Positions 7,938 to 56,709 of a DNA stretch of 64,000 bases are shown here, piece by piece. The position numbers and the translations under genes were made by a program. The notes below the pieces were generated by a model that saw only the letters and a program-made list of their open reading frames with translations, was not told the origin of the DNA and did no database searches. The DNA is from a virus, in IMG/VR virus record IMGVR_UViG_3300044701_003175, positions 62,001 through 126,000 of that record; one strand, given 5' to 3'. Numbering within the stretch: position 1 is the first letter of the stretch; each line of letters opens with the position of its first letter.

Positions 7938-8669
7938 ATGGGAAATGCTCCGATTGAGATAAAGTTTTTAGACATTGTAGGCGACTTGCCTGAAGAGACT
8001 AAGCCATACCCTGCCAAAAAGAACATTCCAAATTGGTATAAAAGTCTTCCTTCTTATATAGATGGTGAACAAGGACAAGTTTATTGGAATGATGTAGGTA
8101 TTAATCAAGGTACAGCGACTGGTAAAAAATGTATGCCTATGTTGGATGCTATGACTGCTGGATACATAATTCCCCTACCCACAGATATAAAAGTTTCAAG
8201 ACAAAATGGTCAGCAGCTGTTTCAATGGCCTGACCACGAAGTGTTGGGGTTTCATCCACCTCTTCAAATGACAACGCACCCGCATGTTGAAAAAAATTCA
8301 AATAACTCAATACCTAAATTTCACTCTCCTTGGACAATAGTTACTCCTCCTGGATATTCTGTTCTCTGTATTGCTCCGCTTAATAGAGACTCAGAACATA
8401 AAATTCTTGAGGCAATCCCTGGGGTTGTAGACACTGACACATACAACCACCCAATTAACTTTCCTTTTTTAATAGACCCGAATTGGACTGGAATAATCCC
8501 TGCTGGATATCCAATGGTTCAAGTAATACCTTTTAAAAGAGAGTCTTTTAAAATGGAGTTTGGTGGCAGAGAAGAATATCTGAAAATGCAGAAAAGCTTT
8601 AGAAGACTAAAAATGAGCTTTTACAATGGATATAAAGACCGATTTTGGTCACGCAAGGAATACAACTAA
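7938..8669 (+). CDS. Paralogue of the halogenase-adjacent protein
   Basis: 243 residues. Shares its layout with the protein at 21618-22322: (I/V)PxWYKxxPxxIDG near the N-terminus, KxCxPxxDxMxxGY, TPPGYSVLxxxPxNR, GxIPAGxPxxQxxPFKR, and the same ending RKEYN/KKEYN. No catalytic motif is known to me. It stands alone on the plus strand among minus-strand genes, behind an insulator hairpin, suggesting independent control. The other copy sits next to a flavin halogenase, so a role in the same chemistry is an inference. Confidence 0.8.
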   Translation: MGNAPIEIKFLDIVGDLPEETKPYPAKKNIPNWYKSLPSYIDGEQGQVYWNDVGINQGTATGKKCMPMLDAMTAGYIIPLPTDIKVSRQNGQQLFQWPDHEVLGFHPPLQMTTHPHVEKNSNNSIPKFHSPWTIVTPPGYSVLCIAPLNRDSEHKILEAIPGVVDTDTYNHPINFPFLIDPNWTGIIPAGYPMVQVIPFKRESFKMEFGGREEYLKMQKSFRRLKMSFYNGYKDRFWSRKEYN

Positions 8670-10282: not shown

Positions 10283-10732
10283 TTAACTTCTTCGGACGCG
10301 CTCTATAAGTTCTGTAGAGGAGAAGTTGTGTTTGCGACTATTGTAGTAAATCTCTATGTTGTGAGTTATACAGTAGTCCCTACCTGTGAAGTCTTTACCT
10401 ATGTAGTCTTCCCCGATAATTCGAACATCTATGGGCAATGTCTTAAGTAAGTTGAGCAAGTCTTCTTCAGTCTCATAAATGACAATCTCATCTACATACT
10501 TAACTGCTTTCAGCTGCAACTGACGCTCAATTAAAGACTGTATAGGTTTGCGCTTTTCTGGTCTATCAAGACTTGGGTCTGTTTGAAGAGCGACTATAAG
10601 ATGATCGCATGCGGACTTTGCCTCTTCAAGCATGAGAATGTGACCTGCGTGTAGGAGGTCAAAACAAGAAGCGGTAAAACCAACTTTGTTGTGTTTGAAC
10701 ATACGCTCTAGTTCGAGTAGTGCTGATTCCAT
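10283..10732 (-). CDS. Cytidylyltransferase-like nucleotidyltransferase
   Basis: 149 residues. FDLLHAGHILMLEEAK holds the HxGH motif, and HNFSSTELIERVR the C-terminal ISSTxI-like motif. RIIGEDY resembles the xKGxDY region of sugar- and glycerol-phosphate nucleotidylyltransferases. It would activate a phosphorylated alcohol or sugar with CTP or ATP. A pyruvyltransferase-like gene lies nearby on the other strand, so glycan or cell-surface chemistry is possible. Confidence 0.85.
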   Translation of the reverse strand: MESALLELERMFKHNKVGFTASCFDLLHAGHILMLEEAKSACDHLIVALQTDPSLDRPEKRKPIQSLIERQLQLKAVKYVDEIVIYETEEDLLNLLKTLPIDVRIIGEDYIGKDFTGRDYCITHNIEIYYNSRKHNFSSTELIERVRRS

Positions 10733-11476
10733 TTAATCCTCCAACACTGCTTCTTTAATTTTGCGAAGGACTATGTCTTTTGTTCTAGATTTAGTAAAGG
10801 TTTCATATCTATAAGCTAAAGACTTAAACTTCCCAAAACTGTTCTTTGTGTCAGCAACGCTTTCTGCTAGCTTGTAGATTTCATGAGTCATTTCAAATCG
10901 TTTTAGGTTGACCTTTTTGTCAGTTATAAAACGTGCATATAAAACTGGCTCTTCTGCTAAATGAAACCTGTTTACACCCTTCCGTAGAATCATTTCAACT
11001 AAGCAAGGTCTAAACCACTTTGAGATGTTGAACCTACCTGGTGTAATACTTCCGTAATTCTGGTGGATTGTGTCGTGAAGTATTGGAGGCATTATCTCCA
11101 TCTCGAGGTCTTCTTCAGAGAAGAACACCCAACCTAATGGCATCCAAATAACTTTCCTATCTTCCATAAAAGTTTCCATTGTTCTAGATAAGACAATTTG
11201 ATGCTCTTGAAGAGGAACAAACTTTTGTAAAACAGGGTCAAACTCAAACTTGCTATCTACAACATTTGAAAAGACATAGGTGTTAGAAAACATGTTTTTA
11301 TATGCTGGGCAAAAGAAAATACTATTATTTGGGTCAGCGTCTTCTTTTTTAAACTTCTTTAGAGACTGAGAAACTGGCTCTGGATCGTGGTACATCATGT
11401 TCCAGTCATACCGCTCTTCTGGTCTAATTGGGTAGAATGGAGACCAGTAAACAGTAACTTCGTCTTTGCGTGCCAT
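10733..11476 (-). CDS. Hypothetical 247-residue protein
   Basis: Starts MARKDEVTVYWSPFYPIRPE. Rich in aromatic residues, with several Pro-Trp-Met-Pro turns (VIWMPLGWVFFSEEDLEMEI). No catalytic motif recognised. It overlaps the start of the cytidylyltransferase gene, so the two are co-translated. Loosely reminiscent in size and N-terminus of the 7938/21618 pair, but not clearly related. Confidence 0.65.
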   Translation of the reverse strand: MARKDEVTVYWSPFYPIRPEERYDWNMMYHDPEPVSQSLKKFKKEDADPNNSIFFCPAYKNMFSNTYVFSNVVDSKFEFDPVLQKFVPLQEHQIVLSRTMETFMEDRKVIWMPLGWVFFSEEDLEMEIMPPILHDTIHQNYGSITPGRFNISKWFRPCLVEMILRKGVNRFHLAEEPVLYARFITDKKVNLKRFEMTHEIYKLAESVADTKNSFGKFKSLAYRYETFTKSRTKDIVLRKIKEAVLED

Positions 11477-11501
11477 GTATTTATCATAGTAGAGATTTCA
11501 A

Positions 11502-11523
11502 TTTTCCGGGCTCTCTTTCCGTT
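11502..11523 (-). promoter_or_regulatory. SAS-like start-associated sequence, copy 5 (diverged)
   Basis: Minus strand TAACGGAAAGAGAGCCCGGA then AAATTG, in the divergent gap 11477-11578. One substitution (GGG to GAG) and only a five-codon frame after TTG, so it may be a relic or act at DNA level. Confidence 0.5.
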
Positions 11524-11578
11524 AAAAGCAGCGGCGCGTTGAGAAATTAAGGGTTGGGGAAGAAGGTAGGGTTGTGGA

Positions 11579-12310
11579 GTGATTTATGAGTGGAAAATGG
11601 ATGGGGTTGTCCGAAATTACGGAGATGCCTTAGCTGAGCTAGTTACGCCCCCTTCTGTCTATGCTGCTTGGGCTGCAGATACTGAACACATGTTCTTCCC
11701 TATGGGAAGTGTGATATGTAATGAAATAATGAATGAAACAATTCAAAGAAGATTAAAACCAGTATTTGTTGCATGTGGGTGGCGTGGGGAAGAATTAAAT
11801 CCGACACTAGTTGGGATGTCACAGTTTGTAGGAGCAAGAGGACCACACACCCAAGCAGAACTTGCAAAACATGGGGTAGATGTAGAGGTAACTATGGACC
11901 CTGGTTATGTAGTACCAGACTTACTATCAAAAGCATCTCCAACAGGTCTAGCTATTGTCATTCGTCATATAAAAGACCCCTCTGATTACAACGAATTTAC
12001 AAAGCACGAGTATGGAGCCGATGAAGTCATAAGCGCAGCTATTAATACAATAGATGACACCATTGCGCTAACTCACCAAATCTCTGGCTCAAGATTCGTT
12101 TTGGCGGGTGCTATGCATGCTGCAATTGTGGCTCATGCTTATAACATTCCGTTTGCTCTACTAAACGGACCCTACATCGACTGCCTGCCTAAATGGTATG
12201 ACTGGTTTGCTTCGGTAAACTTAGGAGAGCCAGTCTTCGTCTCAAACGTAGCCGAAGGGCGTAAGTGGTACAACGACAACGTAAGGAATAGGAATACAGA
12301 TGGCATTTGA
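11579..12310 (+). CDS. Polysaccharide pyruvyl transferase-like protein
   Basis: 243 residues. NYGDALAELVT near the start, VGARGPHTQAEL, DPGYVVPDLL, and GSRFVLAGAMHAAIVAHAYN near the end follow the WcaK/polysaccharide pyruvyl transferase pattern (GD, RG, SGRxHxxIxA). Such enzymes put pyruvate ketals on surface sugars. GTG start is weakly supported. The stop overlaps the next gene by 11 bases. Confidence 0.8.
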   Translation: MIYEWKMDGVVRNYGDALAELVTPPSVYAAWAADTEHMFFPMGSVICNEIMNETIQRRLKPVFVACGWRGEELNPTLVGMSQFVGARGPHTQAELAKHGVDVEVTMDPGYVVPDLLSKASPTGLAIVIRHIKDPSDYNEFTKHEYGADEVISAAINTIDDTIALTHQISGSRFVLAGAMHAAIVAHAYNIPFALLNGPYIDCLPKWYDWFASVNLGEPVFVSNVAEGRKWYNDNVRNRNTDGI

Positions 12311-17933: not shown

Positions 17934-18320
17934 ATGCCTTTACACAACCATTTACTAGTAAACGGGTGGACACTTAACCCGCCGACAGAAGAAAAAGTCG
18001 TTATCGACTGGATGCGCTCATTAGTTGAATCCATCGATATGAAGGTCATTCAAGGACCTTATGCCTCCTACGTAACAGCAGAAGGTAACCGCGGTCTAAC
18101 TGCAGTAGTTATGATCGAAACCTCTCACATCGCTATGCACATCTGGGATGAGAATAAACCTTCTAAAGTCCAGTTTGATTTGTATACATGTGGAGAGCTT
18201 CCTGTAAAACAGGTCTTAGATAATCTTGAAAGCAACCTTGGTCTTATTGACTACACCTATGTAGTTCTTGAGAGAACCGATGGATTTACAATCGAAGACT
18301 TTACAAAGCCTTCAAAGTAA
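17934..18320 (+). CDS. S-adenosylmethionine decarboxylase-like protein (SpeD)
   Basis: 128 residues, the length of bacterial SpeD. ETSHIAMHIWDE aligns with the processing site of SpeD (xESHxSIHTWPE): the pyruvoyl-precursor Ser and the two His remain, but the Glu next to the Ser is Thr here. VQFDLYTCG provides the catalytic Cys. It would make decarboxylated AdoMet for spermidine, which could neutralise packaged DNA. Another AdoMet-using pyruvoyl enzyme remains possible. Confidence 0.82.
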   Translation: MPLHNHLLVNGWTLNPPTEEKVVIDWMRSLVESIDMKVIQGPYASYVTAEGNRGLTAVVMIETSHIAMHIWDENKPSKVQFDLYTCGELPVKQVLDNLESNLGLIDYTYVVLERTDGFTIEDFTKPSK

Positions 18321-18762: not shown

Positions 18763-19704
18763 TTAGTACTGGACTGGAACCATCATTTCAAAAACCATGC
18801 TCTTTGGTAAAACAGCTATATGACTGGACACATCTTCTCTTCCAAAAGATATTAGGAAGTTGTCTTTGTGATCTGTTAGCCCAGCTGCAAACTCAACCCC
18901 AGGGCGGAAAAACTTAAAACCTTCAGAAACCGCAATAATCATGCCTTGAGAGTCATACTTAACAAAGTAGTGGACATAATCCCTTATTGCAGAAGTACTC
19001 TGAGAAAAGGTGTTGGCTGACCAGTTAGTCATATTCTTAGTGAAAGTTCTATGACAAACTCCCAAATAAGTCCCATCTCCTAAAGCAAACAAATTGCTCC
19101 CACCTCTAAGCAAAGATACCTTTGGATTGTCAGTAAAAATCTGGGTCAATAGATTGTTTTGAACGGTGGCATTTGGCCCGTAAATAAAGTCAAAGTGCTC
19201 GCTTGGCTCGTTGGGGACCATCCAGTTCTTTTCTGGTCGTTGAGCGTCCATTCCTGCCATAATCTTGTAGTCGACAACTTTTGTACATTTTGAGTCAAGC
19301 CTTGCTATGCCAAAACGTGCATATGGAAAGTCTCCCTTTTCCATAACCACAAAGCTAAAATGCCACGCATTATCGCGATAGAAAACTTTTGGGTCTTCTA
19401 TGCCACGACGGAGCGCTCCAAGTTTTGATATGTCTATTTGACGCAAGTGTTTGAGCTTAAACTCTTTATCAAGTTCTGCCCACCAAACGTTAGATTTAAC
19501 TACATCACCAACTGTTACGTTGAGACCGCCAGTAGCTGTGAGTAAGTAGTTTGAAGAGCGAATCGCAACGACATACTTGTTTTTATGTTTGCCAATAGAT
19601 GCGTTAGTAGCAGACCATTTATTATCTTTAGGGTCTACTAAACGACACAAATCGATTATGTGACCGCCCAAGTCTGTGACAAATGGGAACTTTGATGGGT
19701 CCAT
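18763..19704 (-). CDS. Five-bladed beta-propeller, GH130/GH43-like
   Basis: 313 residues. GIEDPKVFYRDNAWHFSFV, RPEKNWMVPNEPSEHFDFIY and a GRED-type end resemble GH130 mannoside phosphorylases and related propellers (EKNWxP...xIYG). No signal peptide. It may cleave or phosphorolyse a glycan intracellularly, or bind sugar. First in line after the halogenase and a small membrane protein, so it could act on the same product. Confidence 0.68.
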   Translation of the reverse strand: MDPSKFPFVTDLGGHIIDLCRLVDPKDNKWSATNASIGKHKNKYVVAIRSSNYLLTATGGLNVTVGDVVKSNVWWAELDKEFKLKHLRQIDISKLGALRRGIEDPKVFYRDNAWHFSFVVMEKGDFPYARFGIARLDSKCTKVVDYKIMAGMDAQRPEKNWMVPNEPSEHFDFIYGPNATVQNNLLTQIFTDNPKVSLLRGGSNLFALGDGTYLGVCHRTFTKNMTNWSANTFSQSTSAIRDYVHYFVKYDSQGMIIAVSEGFKFFRPGVEFAAGLTDHKDNFLISFGREDVSSHIAVLPKSMVFEMMVPVQY

Positions 19705-20052
19705 TTATAGTCCTGTAAAGTGTTTGACCAAAAAAGTAGTAGCAAGAGCTATCCAAAGAATGTTGAACCAAATAAGAGTTGGCATTGTTTTGATAGTTGC
19801 AGACCAAACTAGTAAAAAACTGGTTACAAGAGCAATAATATAAAGCCACCAAATAGACACACCAAACAACAAACCTGGAATAATGATTACAGCTTTTGTT
19901 GTAAAAGCAAGAAACTCAACTGTGTTAGGTGCATTCCAATAGGCTTTGGTTCCCATTGTCTTAAGAGCTGTAGCCCACTGGAAGTGTTTACGCCAGTTGC
20001 CATCAAAAACTTCTTTGTTAGTAAAAAAGTTAGGGTCTTTGTAATTTTTCAT
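19705..20052 (-). CDS. Membrane protein of the halogenase cluster
   Basis: 115 residues with about three hydrophobic helices (TKAVIIIPGLLFGVSIWWLY; IIALVTSFLLVWSATI; LIWFNILWIALATTFL). It directly abuts the halogenase stop and the propeller start. No family recognised; it could tether the enzymes or export a product. Confidence 0.68.
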   Translation of the reverse strand: MKNYKDPNFFTNKEVFDGNWRKHFQWATALKTMGTKAYWNAPNTVEFLAFTTKAVIIIPGLLFGVSIWWLYIIALVTSFLLVWSATIKTMPTLIWFNILWIALATTFLVKHFTGL

Positions 20053-21618
20053 CTACTCTTCCCTCATTAGTTTTATAAACTCATTGTGAGTTACTGATTC
20101 AGTGTCTGCAACTACTTTTATTAAATGTTTAAAGTTGTTATACCTATGCTCCATAAAAGACCTTGTAAAAGTGTAGAACTCGAAAAGCTTACTATTTTCT
20201 ACAAAATCTTTATTTTTTAAGCCTAAGAGAATATATGACCAAGAATCAATTTCAAAGAAGTGGTGATTTAAAAAGTCATTAAGAATAAAAGCTCTTCTTT
20301 TATTTATCCCTAAATAATGTTTTGCTTTGTCTGGGGCATTTTCCATTGTGTAATGCTCCCAAAACTCCGTGTCAGTTCTACCTCCCATATAATGAGCGTA
20401 GACAAAACCTATTGTTTCTTCTTGATAGTCTCGCCAATAAGCATTAAATTCATCAATAACAGTTTGGTCCTTTAAATACATCAACTCTGAGTTAGCCAAC
20501 AAATGACTTACCCAGTTGACAATTGTTGTCCAAATAGAAGTTGCTTCTAGCGGTTCAATAAACCCTGCAGAAAGACCTACCGTATAAACATTCTTTTTCC
20601 AAGGCTCTTTTAAATAACCAGGAGTCCAAGAGAATGATGTTTCTCTAGGCCATGTTGGTTCATACCCAAGCCATTCAATAATCTCTGCTTTTGCTTGTTC
20701 ATCGTCAATCATTCGACTATTAAAGACATAGCCGCAGCCGTATCTACTTTGTAGAGGGATTTTCCACACCCATCCATACTTCATGGCAATAGCTTCCGTG
20801 TATGGAGGTATTTCTTCATCCATGTCTAAGAAAAATGGCATAGCCGCATTTACAGTTAAATGGTTTTCATGAGACACCCACTCTGACTCAAACTTCTTTG
20901 CAAAGAAGGAGTTAAACCCAGAACAGTCGAACACAAAGTCTGTTTCTATAACTTTCCCTGTTTCCATAACTAAAGTATTTACGTAGCCTTCTTCATCAGT
21001 TGTGAAGTCTTGAACTACTCCTTCAACACGGTTGATTCCTCTTTCTTCTCCTGTTTTAGATAGAAAGGCCGCAAGCTTGCGAGCATCAAAGTGCAAAGAA
21101 AAGGAGCCCATCTTTTCAAACTGATAAATCGGGTCATCATCTGGATACAGCTCATTTGTTTTCTTTTTAAATGAAACTTTTTTAGCTTCCCCGAGTCTGC
21201 TCATAAAACACCAGTCTGCTTGAGAATCTTGTGTTTTTGCAGCCATAGTAAAAATACTTGGAGTTCCAGCTAGAAGTCTTTCAAAACTTAGCTCGGTGGC
21301 AGCGCAGTTTCCAAAAGCAACAAACGGGTGATAGAACCAATCATCTTTTCCTTCATTTCGCCAGTTTGTAAACTTAATAGACTGCTTTAAAGTTACGTCT
21401 GCTTCTTTCATCAATTCAGAGACTGGGATTTGAAGTACATCTAAAAACTGAATTAACTGAGGAGTAGAGCCTTCTCCAGCACCAAGAATCCCGACTTTGT
21501 CGGATTCAATTAAAGTAATTCTTTTAGTTGGCAGCATGGTCTTTGCGTATAAAGCAGTAAGCCATCCAGCAGTTCCGCCACCTAAAATAGTGACATTCTT
21601 TATATCTCTAAGATCCAT
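20053..21618 (-). CDS. Flavin-dependent (tryptophan-type) halogenase
   Basis: 521 residues. GGGTAGWLTALYAK is the FAD-binding GxGxxG motif; GAGEGSTPQL and ADVTLKQSIKF contain the conserved Glu and Lys regions; WVWKIP is the WxWxIP motif that separates halogenases from monooxygenases. These enzymes chlorinate or brominate aromatic rings using FADH2. Tryptophan-halogenase-like genes are known in cyanophages, function unknown. The stop overlaps the next gene and the start the previous (TAATG). Confidence 0.92.
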   Translation of the reverse strand: MDLRDIKNVTILGGGTAGWLTALYAKTMLPTKRITLIESDKVGILGAGEGSTPQLIQFLDVLQIPVSELMKEADVTLKQSIKFTNWRNEGKDDWFYHPFVAFGNCAATELSFERLLAGTPSIFTMAAKTQDSQADWCFMSRLGEAKKVSFKKKTNELYPDDDPIYQFEKMGSFSLHFDARKLAAFLSKTGEERGINRVEGVVQDFTTDEEGYVNTLVMETGKVIETDFVFDCSGFNSFFAKKFESEWVSHENHLTVNAAMPFFLDMDEEIPPYTEAIAMKYGWVWKIPLQSRYGCGYVFNSRMIDDEQAKAEIIEWLGYEPTWPRETSFSWTPGYLKEPWKKNVYTVGLSAGFIEPLEATSIWTTIVNWVSHLLANSELMYLKDQTVIDEFNAYWRDYQEETIGFVYAHYMGGRTDTEFWEHYTMENAPDKAKHYLGINKRRAFILNDFLNHHFFEIDSWSYILLGLKNKDFVENSKLFEFYTFTRSFMEHRYNNFKHLIKVVADTESVTHNEFIKLMREE

Positions 21619-22322
21619 TAGTTGTACTCTTTCTTGTGCCAGATGTTATTTCGATAGTGACCAAACATTTTGGTCATACCATCCCACATGCGTTTTGAGG
21701 CTTTGTCACCTAAAGTCTCGTCGTACTCTGACTCCCATGCATCTCGTTTGAATGGGAAGATTTGGTAGATAGGAGTTCCTGCTGGAATTACTCCTTCAAA
21801 ATTATCTTTCATGTAAAAAGGTAAATGTCCATGAGGCATTATTGCGTCAGAGTCATGAATACCATTCAATGTTGTGAATGGCAGGTCATAGCGATTAAAC
21901 GGATGAGTAATTAATACGCTATAGCCTGGAGGAGTTTGAATAGAAAAGGGTGTTACCCAAGCGTACTGCTGGGGGTTATGCCCTGCTGGTATTGGTAGTA
22001 ATTCCATACCATGATTGCTTCTATCATTAATTGGAGTAGGGTCAACAAGCCAATCTAGTTTTAAACCGTCTGGTCGTCTTGTAACCTGAACATCTTGCCA
22101 CAATGTGGCTGTATAACCTGAAATCATGGTATCAAAGAAGGGGACGCACATTTTCATGCTGATGTTGGAGCGAGCGCCTCTATCGGTATAAATAATAGAA
22201 GCTTCTTTGCCATCTATAAATCTAGGAGATTTTTTATACCAATCTGGAACTACATTTCTGATAGGTATAGGTGTTTCAGGGTACTCATGACTTTTACCGA
22301 ATTTGATTAGCTTTTTTCCCAT
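21618..22322 (-). CDS. Halogenase-linked protein, paralogue of 7938-8669
   Basis: 234 residues. VVPDWYKKSPRFIDGKEASI, TPPGYSVLITHPFNR, GVIPAGTPIYQIFPFKR and a KKEYN end. It overlaps the halogenase start by one base, so the two proteins are made together. It could be a partner, a substrate carrier or the substrate itself. Confidence 0.8.
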   Translation of the reverse strand: MGKKLIKFGKSHEYPETPIPIRNVVPDWYKKSPRFIDGKEASIIYTDRGARSNISMKMCVPFFDTMISGYTATLWQDVQVTRRPDGLKLDWLVDPTPINDRSNHGMELLPIPAGHNPQQYAWVTPFSIQTPPGYSVLITHPFNRYDLPFTTLNGIHDSDAIMPHGHLPFYMKDNFEGVIPAGTPIYQIFPFKRDAWESEYDETLGDKASKRMWDGMTKMFGHYRNNIWHKKEYN

Positions 22323-54939: not shown

Positions 54940-56709
54940 ATGGCGGTATTCAAAAAAGAAGAGCCAGTACAAGAGCCAGTTGTTTCTGAAACCAAGAAAC
55001 CACGTCCTCGTCGCCGTACTCGTACTAACCGCTCTACTCAAATTATTGAGAGAACAGTAGCTCCTCAGCCTTCTGGCATTCTTTCAGTTTTCACTTCACC
55101 AAACTCACCAGCTCCGCTTTCTTACAACACTCCTCGTTCTATGACTGCAGCAGCAGTTCAAGTCAAAGTAAATGACAAAGGCGAGTTCGAACAGTTTAAG
55201 CAACGTCGTAGCGCATCCTCATCTGCATGGCAGGCCGAAGCTTGGGAGTATTACGACGCAATTGGTGAAATTAAATACGCATTTAATCTTGTTGCATCTG
55301 TTGTCTCACGTATTCGTATATACGCAGCTGCAATTGATGACCCATCACAGGCTCCAGTTTCAGTACACGAGTCTCGAGTAATTGACCAACGTCTTGCATC
55401 AGCAGCAGAGCGTGCTCTTGACCGTCTTAACTCTGCATATGGAGGCCAAGCAGGTCTTCTTAAAGATGCAGCTCTTAATCTTTCAGTTGCTGGTGAATGT
55501 TATCTAGTACAAATGCCAGCTCGTCCAGGTTCAGGAATTCCTGAATCTTGGGACGTCCGTTCCGTTGACGAAGTTGTAACAGATGCACGTGGTGGATTTA
55601 ATGTTATTGGTCGCCGTGAGCAGGGTGCAGGTCAAGGTGGCGGTGCATCAATGGGAGTTAACAAACTTAATAAAGGTTCCTTTGTAGGACGTATCTGGCG
55701 TTCACATCCACGTTTCTCTGATGAAGCAGATTCTTCTCTACGCGGTCTTCTAGATCTTTGCGCAGAACTACTTCTCCTCAACAGAACATTCCGTGCAACT
55801 GCACGCTCTCGCCTCAACGCAGGAGCACTTTATCTTCCAGACGGACTTTCTGTTGCTGCACAAGCAGACCCTAACTATCCATACGATTCTGAAGACGGAA
55901 TGGGAGCGGGCTTTACTGCAGAAGAAGCAGAAGACGAATTTGAAGAGCAACTCATCGATGCGATGACAACTCCGATTCGTGATGAAGAATCTGCGAGCGC
56001 TGTTGTTCCTCTTATCATTCGCGGTCCTGCAGAACTTGGTGACCGCATCAAGCAATTTAAGTTTGAGCGTTCTTTCGACCCAGCACTTGCTGAGCGTTCA
56101 GACCGTGTACTAGAGCGCATTCTTCAAGGTCTTGATGTTCCAAAGGACATCGTCACAGGTCTTGCAAATGTTAAGTACTCCAACGCGATGCAAATCGACG
56201 AGTCTCTGTACAAGGCACACATCGAACCATTGATGCTTCTCATCTCAGACGCTCTTACAGTTGTCTACCTACGCCCATATCTAATGGCAAATGGTTTCAC
56301 CGAGTCTGAAGTAAATAGAATTGTTGTTTGGTACGACCCATCAGCAGTCTCAACACGTAACGACCGTGCTGCAGATGCAGATGCAGGTTACGACCGCATG
56401 GCAGTTTCTGCTGACACATGGCGTCGTGCTCACGGCTTCTCAGACCAAGATGCTCCTACTCCAACAGAAGTTGCTCTACGACTTCTACAAGAGCGTGGCG
56501 CAATCACACCAGAACTTACAGAGGCAATGCTTAAAGCTGTTGCACCAGATGTGATGCAAGCAGTTCAGCAAGTAAGCCAAGAAAGTTCTGTTGCTCCAAT
56601 GTCACCAGAGTTGCAAACTCTTCTTGACGGTGCAATTGGCGAAGCTCCAGCAGAGACTCCAACCGAGGAACCAGCAACACCTGCACCAACTGAGGAGGCT
56701 CAGCAGTAA
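54940..56709 (+). CDS. Portal protein
   Basis: 589 residues. Basic N-terminus, then WEYYDAIGEIKYAFNLVASV, a mid portal domain, FRATARSRLNAGALYLPDGL, and LQGLDVPKDIVTGLANVKYS with AMQIDESLYKAHIEPLMLLI, as in actinophage portals. The dodecameric gate of the capsid. The Pro/Glu-rich end is low complexity. Opens the structural module. Confidence 0.88.
   Translation: MAVFKKEEPVQEPVVSETKKPRPRRRTRTNRSTQIIERTVAPQPSGILSVFTSPNSPAPLSYNTPRSMTAAAVQVKVNDKGEFEQFKQRRSASSSAWQAEAWEYYDAIGEIKYAFNLVASVVSRIRIYAAAIDDPSQAPVSVHESRVIDQRLASAAERALDRLNSAYGGQAGLLKDAALNLSVAGECYLVQMPARPGSGIPESWDVRSVDEVVTDARGGFNVIGRREQGAGQGGGASMGVNKLNKGSFVGRIWRSHPRFSDEADSSLRGLLDLCAELLLLNRTFRATARSRLNAGALYLPDGLSVAAQADPNYPYDSEDGMGAGFTAEEAEDEFEEQLIDAMTTPIRDEESASAVVPLIIRGPAELGDRIKQFKFERSFDPALAERSDRVLERILQGLDVPKDIVTGLANVKYSNAMQIDESLYKAHIEPLMLLISDALTVVYLRPYLMANGFTESEVNRIVVWYDPSAVSTRNDRAADADAGYDRMAVSADTWRRAHGFSDQDAPTPTEVALRLLQERGAITPELTEAMLKAVAPDVMQAVQQVSQESSVAPMSPELQTLLDGAIGEAPAETPTEEPATPAPTEEAQQ

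Follow-up and report, generated by a model that had tools for sequence, protein, structure and literature searches.

The DNA analysed here carries what we read as a translationally coupled auxiliary operon, in which a catalytically active flavin-dependent halogenase would work with a membrane partner of three transmembrane stretches (the 3-TM protein), and in which the adjoining DUF6065 protein would not be a dedicated halogenase subunit. To this reading as a whole, which is built on sequence and model comparisons, we give a probability of roughly 0.4. It is favoured by the conserved catalytic and aromatic-cradle residues of the halogenase, by the recurrent adjacency of 3-TM and halogenase genes, and by the structural model of DUF6065. 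Counting against it are the 18 of 23 halogenase loci that lack a 3-TM gene and the weak sequence-level link between DUF6065 and dUTPases.

Operon layout and genomic setting

The window, by which we mean the whole stretch of 64,000 nucleotides that was analysed, comprises bases 62001–126000 of a 136-kb viral contig. A sequence-only reading had described a four-gene halogenase cluster at 18763–22322 with the halogenase gene overlapping the gene for a 234-residue protein, and both descriptions were borne out. The four open reading frames lie head to tail on the minus strand between 22322 and 18763, in the order DUF6065 protein A (234 aa, phrog_7084, predicted dUTPase/dCTP-deaminase fold; 21618..22322), flavin-dependent halogenase (521 aa; 20053..21618), 3-TM protein (115 aa; 19705..20052) and GH130-fold protein (313 aa; 18763..19704). 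The stop codon of DUF6065 A and the start codon of the halogenase overlap by one base (TAATG), and the halogenase/3-TM (TAGATG) and 3-TM/GH130 (TAAATG) junctions have no gap. One overlapping and two zero-gap junctions in a single direction fit a translationally coupled operon; promoter-like sites occurred at chance level.

The operon is preceded by a short unassigned reading frame, a glutaredoxin-like protein and an M23/LysM peptidase, and is followed by a DUF3039 protein. A virion structural protein (phrog_1645), an NlpC/P60 tail-type protein and a class II ribonucleotide reductase are also encoded in its vicinity, and an S-adenosylmethionine decarboxylase-like gene (17934–18320, plus strand) flanks it. 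The presence of a portal protein gene (54940–56709) identifies the virus as a tailed phage. Its host is probably a member of the Actinomycetota, as suggested, rather than proven, by the DUF3039 protein and by a WhiB-like neighbour of a second halogenase gene, the latter assignment being judged from the protein sequence.

The halogenase retains its catalytic residues

The operon halogenase matches the PF04820 profile with 337.7 bits (cut-off 21; E = 1.5e-100) and also phrog_2928, and its solved relatives include PrnA, Thal, RebH and the viral VirX1. The FAD and WxWxIP motifs had been noted as intact, and indeed both the GxGxxG region for FAD and WxWxIP (as WVWKIP) are evident in the sequence and in the alignment to PrnA. 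In this alignment, residues K79, H101, F103, W272, W274, P277 and E346 of PrnA correspond to K78, H97, F99, W283, W285, P288 and E358 of the phage enzyme. The active-site lysine and glutamate, the loss of which had been named as an outcome that would overturn the initial interpretation, are thus both kept. The enzyme shares with PrnA and Thal the fold family, the FAD motif, WxWxIP, the catalytic Lys and Glu, and the His/Phe/Trp aromatic cradle. It differs from PrnA in having Ala359 in place of S347, in remaining unaligned past residue ~421, and in being encoded in a phage operon; the HMMER alignment ends at PrnA residue 408, short of the C-terminal region that binds the amino acid part of tryptophan. 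VirX1 of cyanophage Syn10 (PDB 6qgm) is likewise a viral halogenase of this family (E = 1e-44), but it originates from a marine cyanophage; the 3-TM protein of our operon has no match among cultured phages.

Flavin-dependent halogenases use FADH2, oxygen and halide to form hypohalous acid, which a lysine relays to a bound aromatic substrate (PMC8407142). No Flavin_Reduct (PF01613) gene, the single reductase family searched for, was found in this virus or in six other halogenase-bearing viruses, so that the reduced flavin is probably derived from the host. By its sequence, the operon enzyme is a Trp-type flavin halogenase with a complete active site; it is most likely catalytically active and reductase-dependent, and would act with a membrane protein on an aromatic substrate.

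The virus has a second halogenase, which is 29% identical to the operon enzyme and is encoded outside the window (G000:C1:24342-25796; L010:9301-10806). Its gene adjoins collagen-like fibre, methyltransferase and GT2/TPR genes, a setting that resembles locus L011 and phage DSL-LC01, where collagen and glycosyltransferase genes are likewise present. There is no DUF6065 gene next to it. Two sister contigs also carry a second halogenase.

A 3-TM gene recurs beside divergent halogenases

The presence of a three-TM protein in the cluster, also proposed from the sequence, agrees with the hydrophobicity plot of the 115-aa product, which has three hydrophobic stretches, two of them merging. The protein gave no family match with a meaningful score in Pfam, PHROGs or NCBIfam, and among 346 genomes from the phylum of an Ilumatobacteraceae MAG its matches were marginal only.

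Loci were gathered from three separate seeds: the halogenase, DUF6065 and the 3-TM protein. Each seed scan comprised at most the best 80 loci, close relatives first, and the resulting counts are therefore samples and not a census. The 3-TM gene adjoins 5 of the 23 non-redundant halogenase-seeded genes, the other 18 loci being without it. Starting from the 3-TM seed, a halogenase adjoins 7 of 12 non-redundant genes (5 have none adjacent). The gene is found both upstream and downstream of halogenases, and 3-TM proteins are ~60% identical in cases where the neighbouring halogenases share only 34–42% identity. In a maximum likelihood tree of 50 halogenases, those with a 3-TM neighbour are spread over several well-supported clades, corresponding to at least seven gains or losses. 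This pattern suggests that halogenase and 3-TM genes have become associated repeatedly, although the two may instead have been transferred horizontally as a pair. As far as gene neighbourhoods can tell, the 3-TM gene is a better candidate than DUF6065 for a recurrent halogenase partner.

Among related viruses, comparative synteny showed that both the cluster and the lone DUF6065 paralogue are conserved. DUF6065, halogenase and GH130-fold genes are collinear in five contigs (73–74% halogenase identity) and in a sixth (57%). The 3-TM gene occupies the same place in four of these six; sister contigs L066 and L067 keep the cluster without it. The near-identical twin loci L063 (6705-8054) and L064 (6705-8273) differ by an exact in-frame deletion of 219 bases in the L063 halogenase, at the cost of some 73 residues in the region of the HFDA segment. 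This deletion should disable the L063 enzyme, unless it represents an assembly error.

DUF6065 has a predicted dUTPase fold

The paralogue of protein A that had been recognised at 7938..8669 (plus strand) is genuine: this protein B of 243 aa, which has no neighbouring halogenase, is 31% identical to protein A over 224 aa (E = 4e-33), and both match phrog_7084 (E = 9.6e-37 and 6.6e-51 for the two window proteins). With the Pfam profile DUF6065 (PF19541) protein B scored 26.0 bits, against a cut-off of 26.6, and protein A was unmatched. A literature search found no paper mentioning DUF6065.

An AlphaFold2 model based on a 100-sequence alignment reached a pLDDT of 95.7. Essentially all of the 50 PDB matches listed by Foldseek for this model were dUTPases, dCTP deaminases or dUTPase complexes (best E = 7.6e-4, probability 1.00). 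For the best match the TM score was 0.39 by query length and 0.71 by target, the highest target value, and the low query value points to large insertions, which add roughly 80–100 residues compared to dUTPases and dCTP deaminases. Against viral models, DUF6065-like unknowns came first, followed mainly by dUTPases. At the profile level the similarity is weak (hhalign probability 5.7%); in the hhalign register, GIHDSD and GTPIYQI of DUF6065 align with GLIDSD and GERIAQM of Escherichia coli dUTPase, which places Asp157 at motif 3 Asp90 and Gln187 at motif 4 Gln119. These are the only two catalytic motif positions that align: DUF6065 shows neither the Tyr of motif 3 nor the Arg-Ser of motif 2, and it lacks the glycine-rich motif 5 at the C-terminus. 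As modelled, DUF6065 is probably a dUTPase-fold family that is not itself a dUTPase, and probably binds a nucleotide or a nucleotide-sugar-like ligand.

We also considered whether DUF6065 is the true dUTPase of the phage. This idea found no support, as the motifs are incomplete and HF2 has DUF6065 in addition to a separate protein of the dUTPase/dCTP-deaminase family. A search of the virus contig (G000) with PF00692 (dUTPase) gave no match.

DUF6065 is not a general companion of halogenases

The sequence-only reading had taken DUF6065 to be a fixed halogenase companion in two versions. Within this virus group the idea holds, since the cluster is collinear and paralogue B is retained at 72–77% in four related contigs. 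As a general statement it fails: DUF6065 lies within two genes of a halogenase in none of the 23 non-redundant halogenase-seeded genes, and only 8 of 114 DUF6065-seeded genes, a count that takes in sister loci L063–L067, have a halogenase at this distance. In 53 of the 114, another DUF6065 gene is adjacent. Tandem pairs are common in L069–L147, where an unassigned family of ~240 aa (cluster 16) is often found between or beside the tandem genes. A halogenase-specific DUF6065 was rejected as a general rule on the basis of the three separately seeded samples, and the link looks like cassette sharing with no obligate partnership.

The distribution of DUF6065 is wide. It is carried by 52 phage records, mostly haloarchaeal viruses; the two DUF6065-bearing cultured haloviruses that were checked have no halogenase, and the two cyanophage records tested that contain DUF6065 together with a halogenase have these genes far apart. 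Among Pseudomonadota it was found in 13 of 349 genomes. In 5 of 7 re-found bacterial loci (L214, L216, L218, L219, L220) it adjoins a TPR-like gene, as judged from sequence, and none of the seven has a halogenase near DUF6065. Among the genes around it are those for glycosyltransferases, 2OG oxygenases and carbamoyltransferases. In HF2, HSTV-2 and S-RIM4 it has genes for ribonucleotide reductase or thymidylate synthase as neighbours, which might hint at a connection with nucleotide metabolism. Near paralogue B in the window, a patch resembling a sugar-modification locus (10283–12310) encodes an HldE-like adenylyltransferase, a phrog_17480 protein and a polysaccharide pyruvyl transferase. The phrog_17480 protein (247 aa; 10733..11476, minus strand) has relatives inside some phage halogenase/DUF6065 clusters, and its profile similarity to DUF6065 is very weak (hhalign probability 2.5%).

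The GH130-fold protein

The last gene of the operon had been described as encoding a GH130-like propeller, and this description gains backing from the structural model. The model, built on a seven-sequence alignment, has a moderate pLDDT of 73, and Foldseek matched it to GH130 mannoside phosphorylases such as 7fip (E = 2.4e-8); support from sequence profiles amounts to E = 0.013. The protein has a predicted five-bladed propeller fold and the GxEDP motif (as GIEDP, where D104 falls on the GxEDPR motif of GH130), but is only 8–14% identical to GH130 phosphorylases. It could instead be a mannosyltransferase, like the MPT proteins of Leishmania, which share this fold. A viral scan with the window's own protein gave no match, and a scan with its relative L122 gave at least 596 confirmed matches. 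GH130-fold relatives are abundant in viral contigs (L232–L311), and in the inspected examples they typically lie beside collagen-like or fibre-like and TPR-like genes.

Possible roles of the operon

In the preferred scheme, a host flavin reductase would supply FADH2, and the halogenase would form hypohalous acid at the FAD. Lys78 would relay the acid to an electron-rich aromatic ring, which His97, Phe99 and Trp283 would keep in place. During infection, the 3-TM protein may present the substrate or anchor the halogenase to the membrane. DUF6065, for its part, would be a dUTPase-fold protein of wide distribution that keeps company with genes for envelope- or fibre-related modification and is associated with halogenases in some lineages only.

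Three other roles have to be weighed against this scheme. The halogenase might have DUF6065 as its dedicated partner or as a protein substrate, with a second substrate for the other version of DUF6065, as the gene overlap, the collinearity in six related contigs and the presence of two halogenases and two DUF6065 genes in one virus would allow; DUF6065 also lies beside or near halogenases in other arrangements (L069, L073, L096, L098, L146, L152, L158). We nevertheless find this very doubtful, given the pairing in 0 of 23 and 8 of 114 genes, the more frequent adjacency of DUF6065 to another DUF6065 (53 of 114), the haloviruses and bacteria that have it with no adjacent halogenase, and the second halogenase with no DUF6065 beside it. 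Halogenation of small molecules is an unlikely role as well. Cyanophage halogenases are usually read as auxiliary metabolic enzymes that halogenate host aromatic metabolites. In line with such a role, VirX1 from cyanophage Syn10 takes a diverse range of aromatic compounds as substrates in vitro (PMC8407142), and the residues of the indole cradle are conserved in our enzyme. Biosynthetic genes are absent nearby, however, and specificity for free tryptophan is unsupported because the alignment to PrnA stops before the C-terminal region.

Another option, which we regard as somewhat doubtful, is that the halogenase modifies virion proteins or glycans, for instance in tail-fibre decoration, with the GH130-fold protein, glycosyltransferases and DUF6065 in the same pathway. 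The surroundings of the second halogenase, comparable to those in L011 and DSL-LC01, are suggestive in this respect, as are the collagen-like fibre and TPR genes adjoining GH130 relatives. Moreover, the halogenase gene of pelagiphage HTVC008M is surrounded by genes for neck, terminase and tail proteins and adjoins a 2OG-type oxygenase gene, and QhpG, to which NCBIfam gave a weak match here, provides the precedent of a flavoprotein that acts on protein-bound Trp (PMC7876137). Yet a collagen-like gene is found within 5 kb of only 6 of 86 halogenase loci, and the window cluster, although near a structural gene, has no collagen gene there. A fibre-modification role of the halogenase is thus weakly supported.

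Significance

Overall, the observation of the cluster is confirmed and its interpretation in terms of a companion protein is partly supported. What is new and most useful is the predicted fold of DUF6065 together with the recurrent 3-TM partner. Phage halogenases have no settled native role, and this includes the biochemically characterised VirX1; a membrane protein encoded time and again next to divergent halogenases provides a concrete and testable partner. A bolder version, decidedly improbable in our view, would have phage halogenases of this type and the previously undescribed 3-TM protein form a membrane-linked halogenating module, and DUF6065 represent a new non-dUTPase branch of the dUTPase fold, providing or recognising a nucleotide-linked substrate in a phage surface-modification pathway. 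For DUF6065 itself, a family that counts hundreds of members in viruses and some in bacteria, the predicted fold offers a binding pocket that can be tested.
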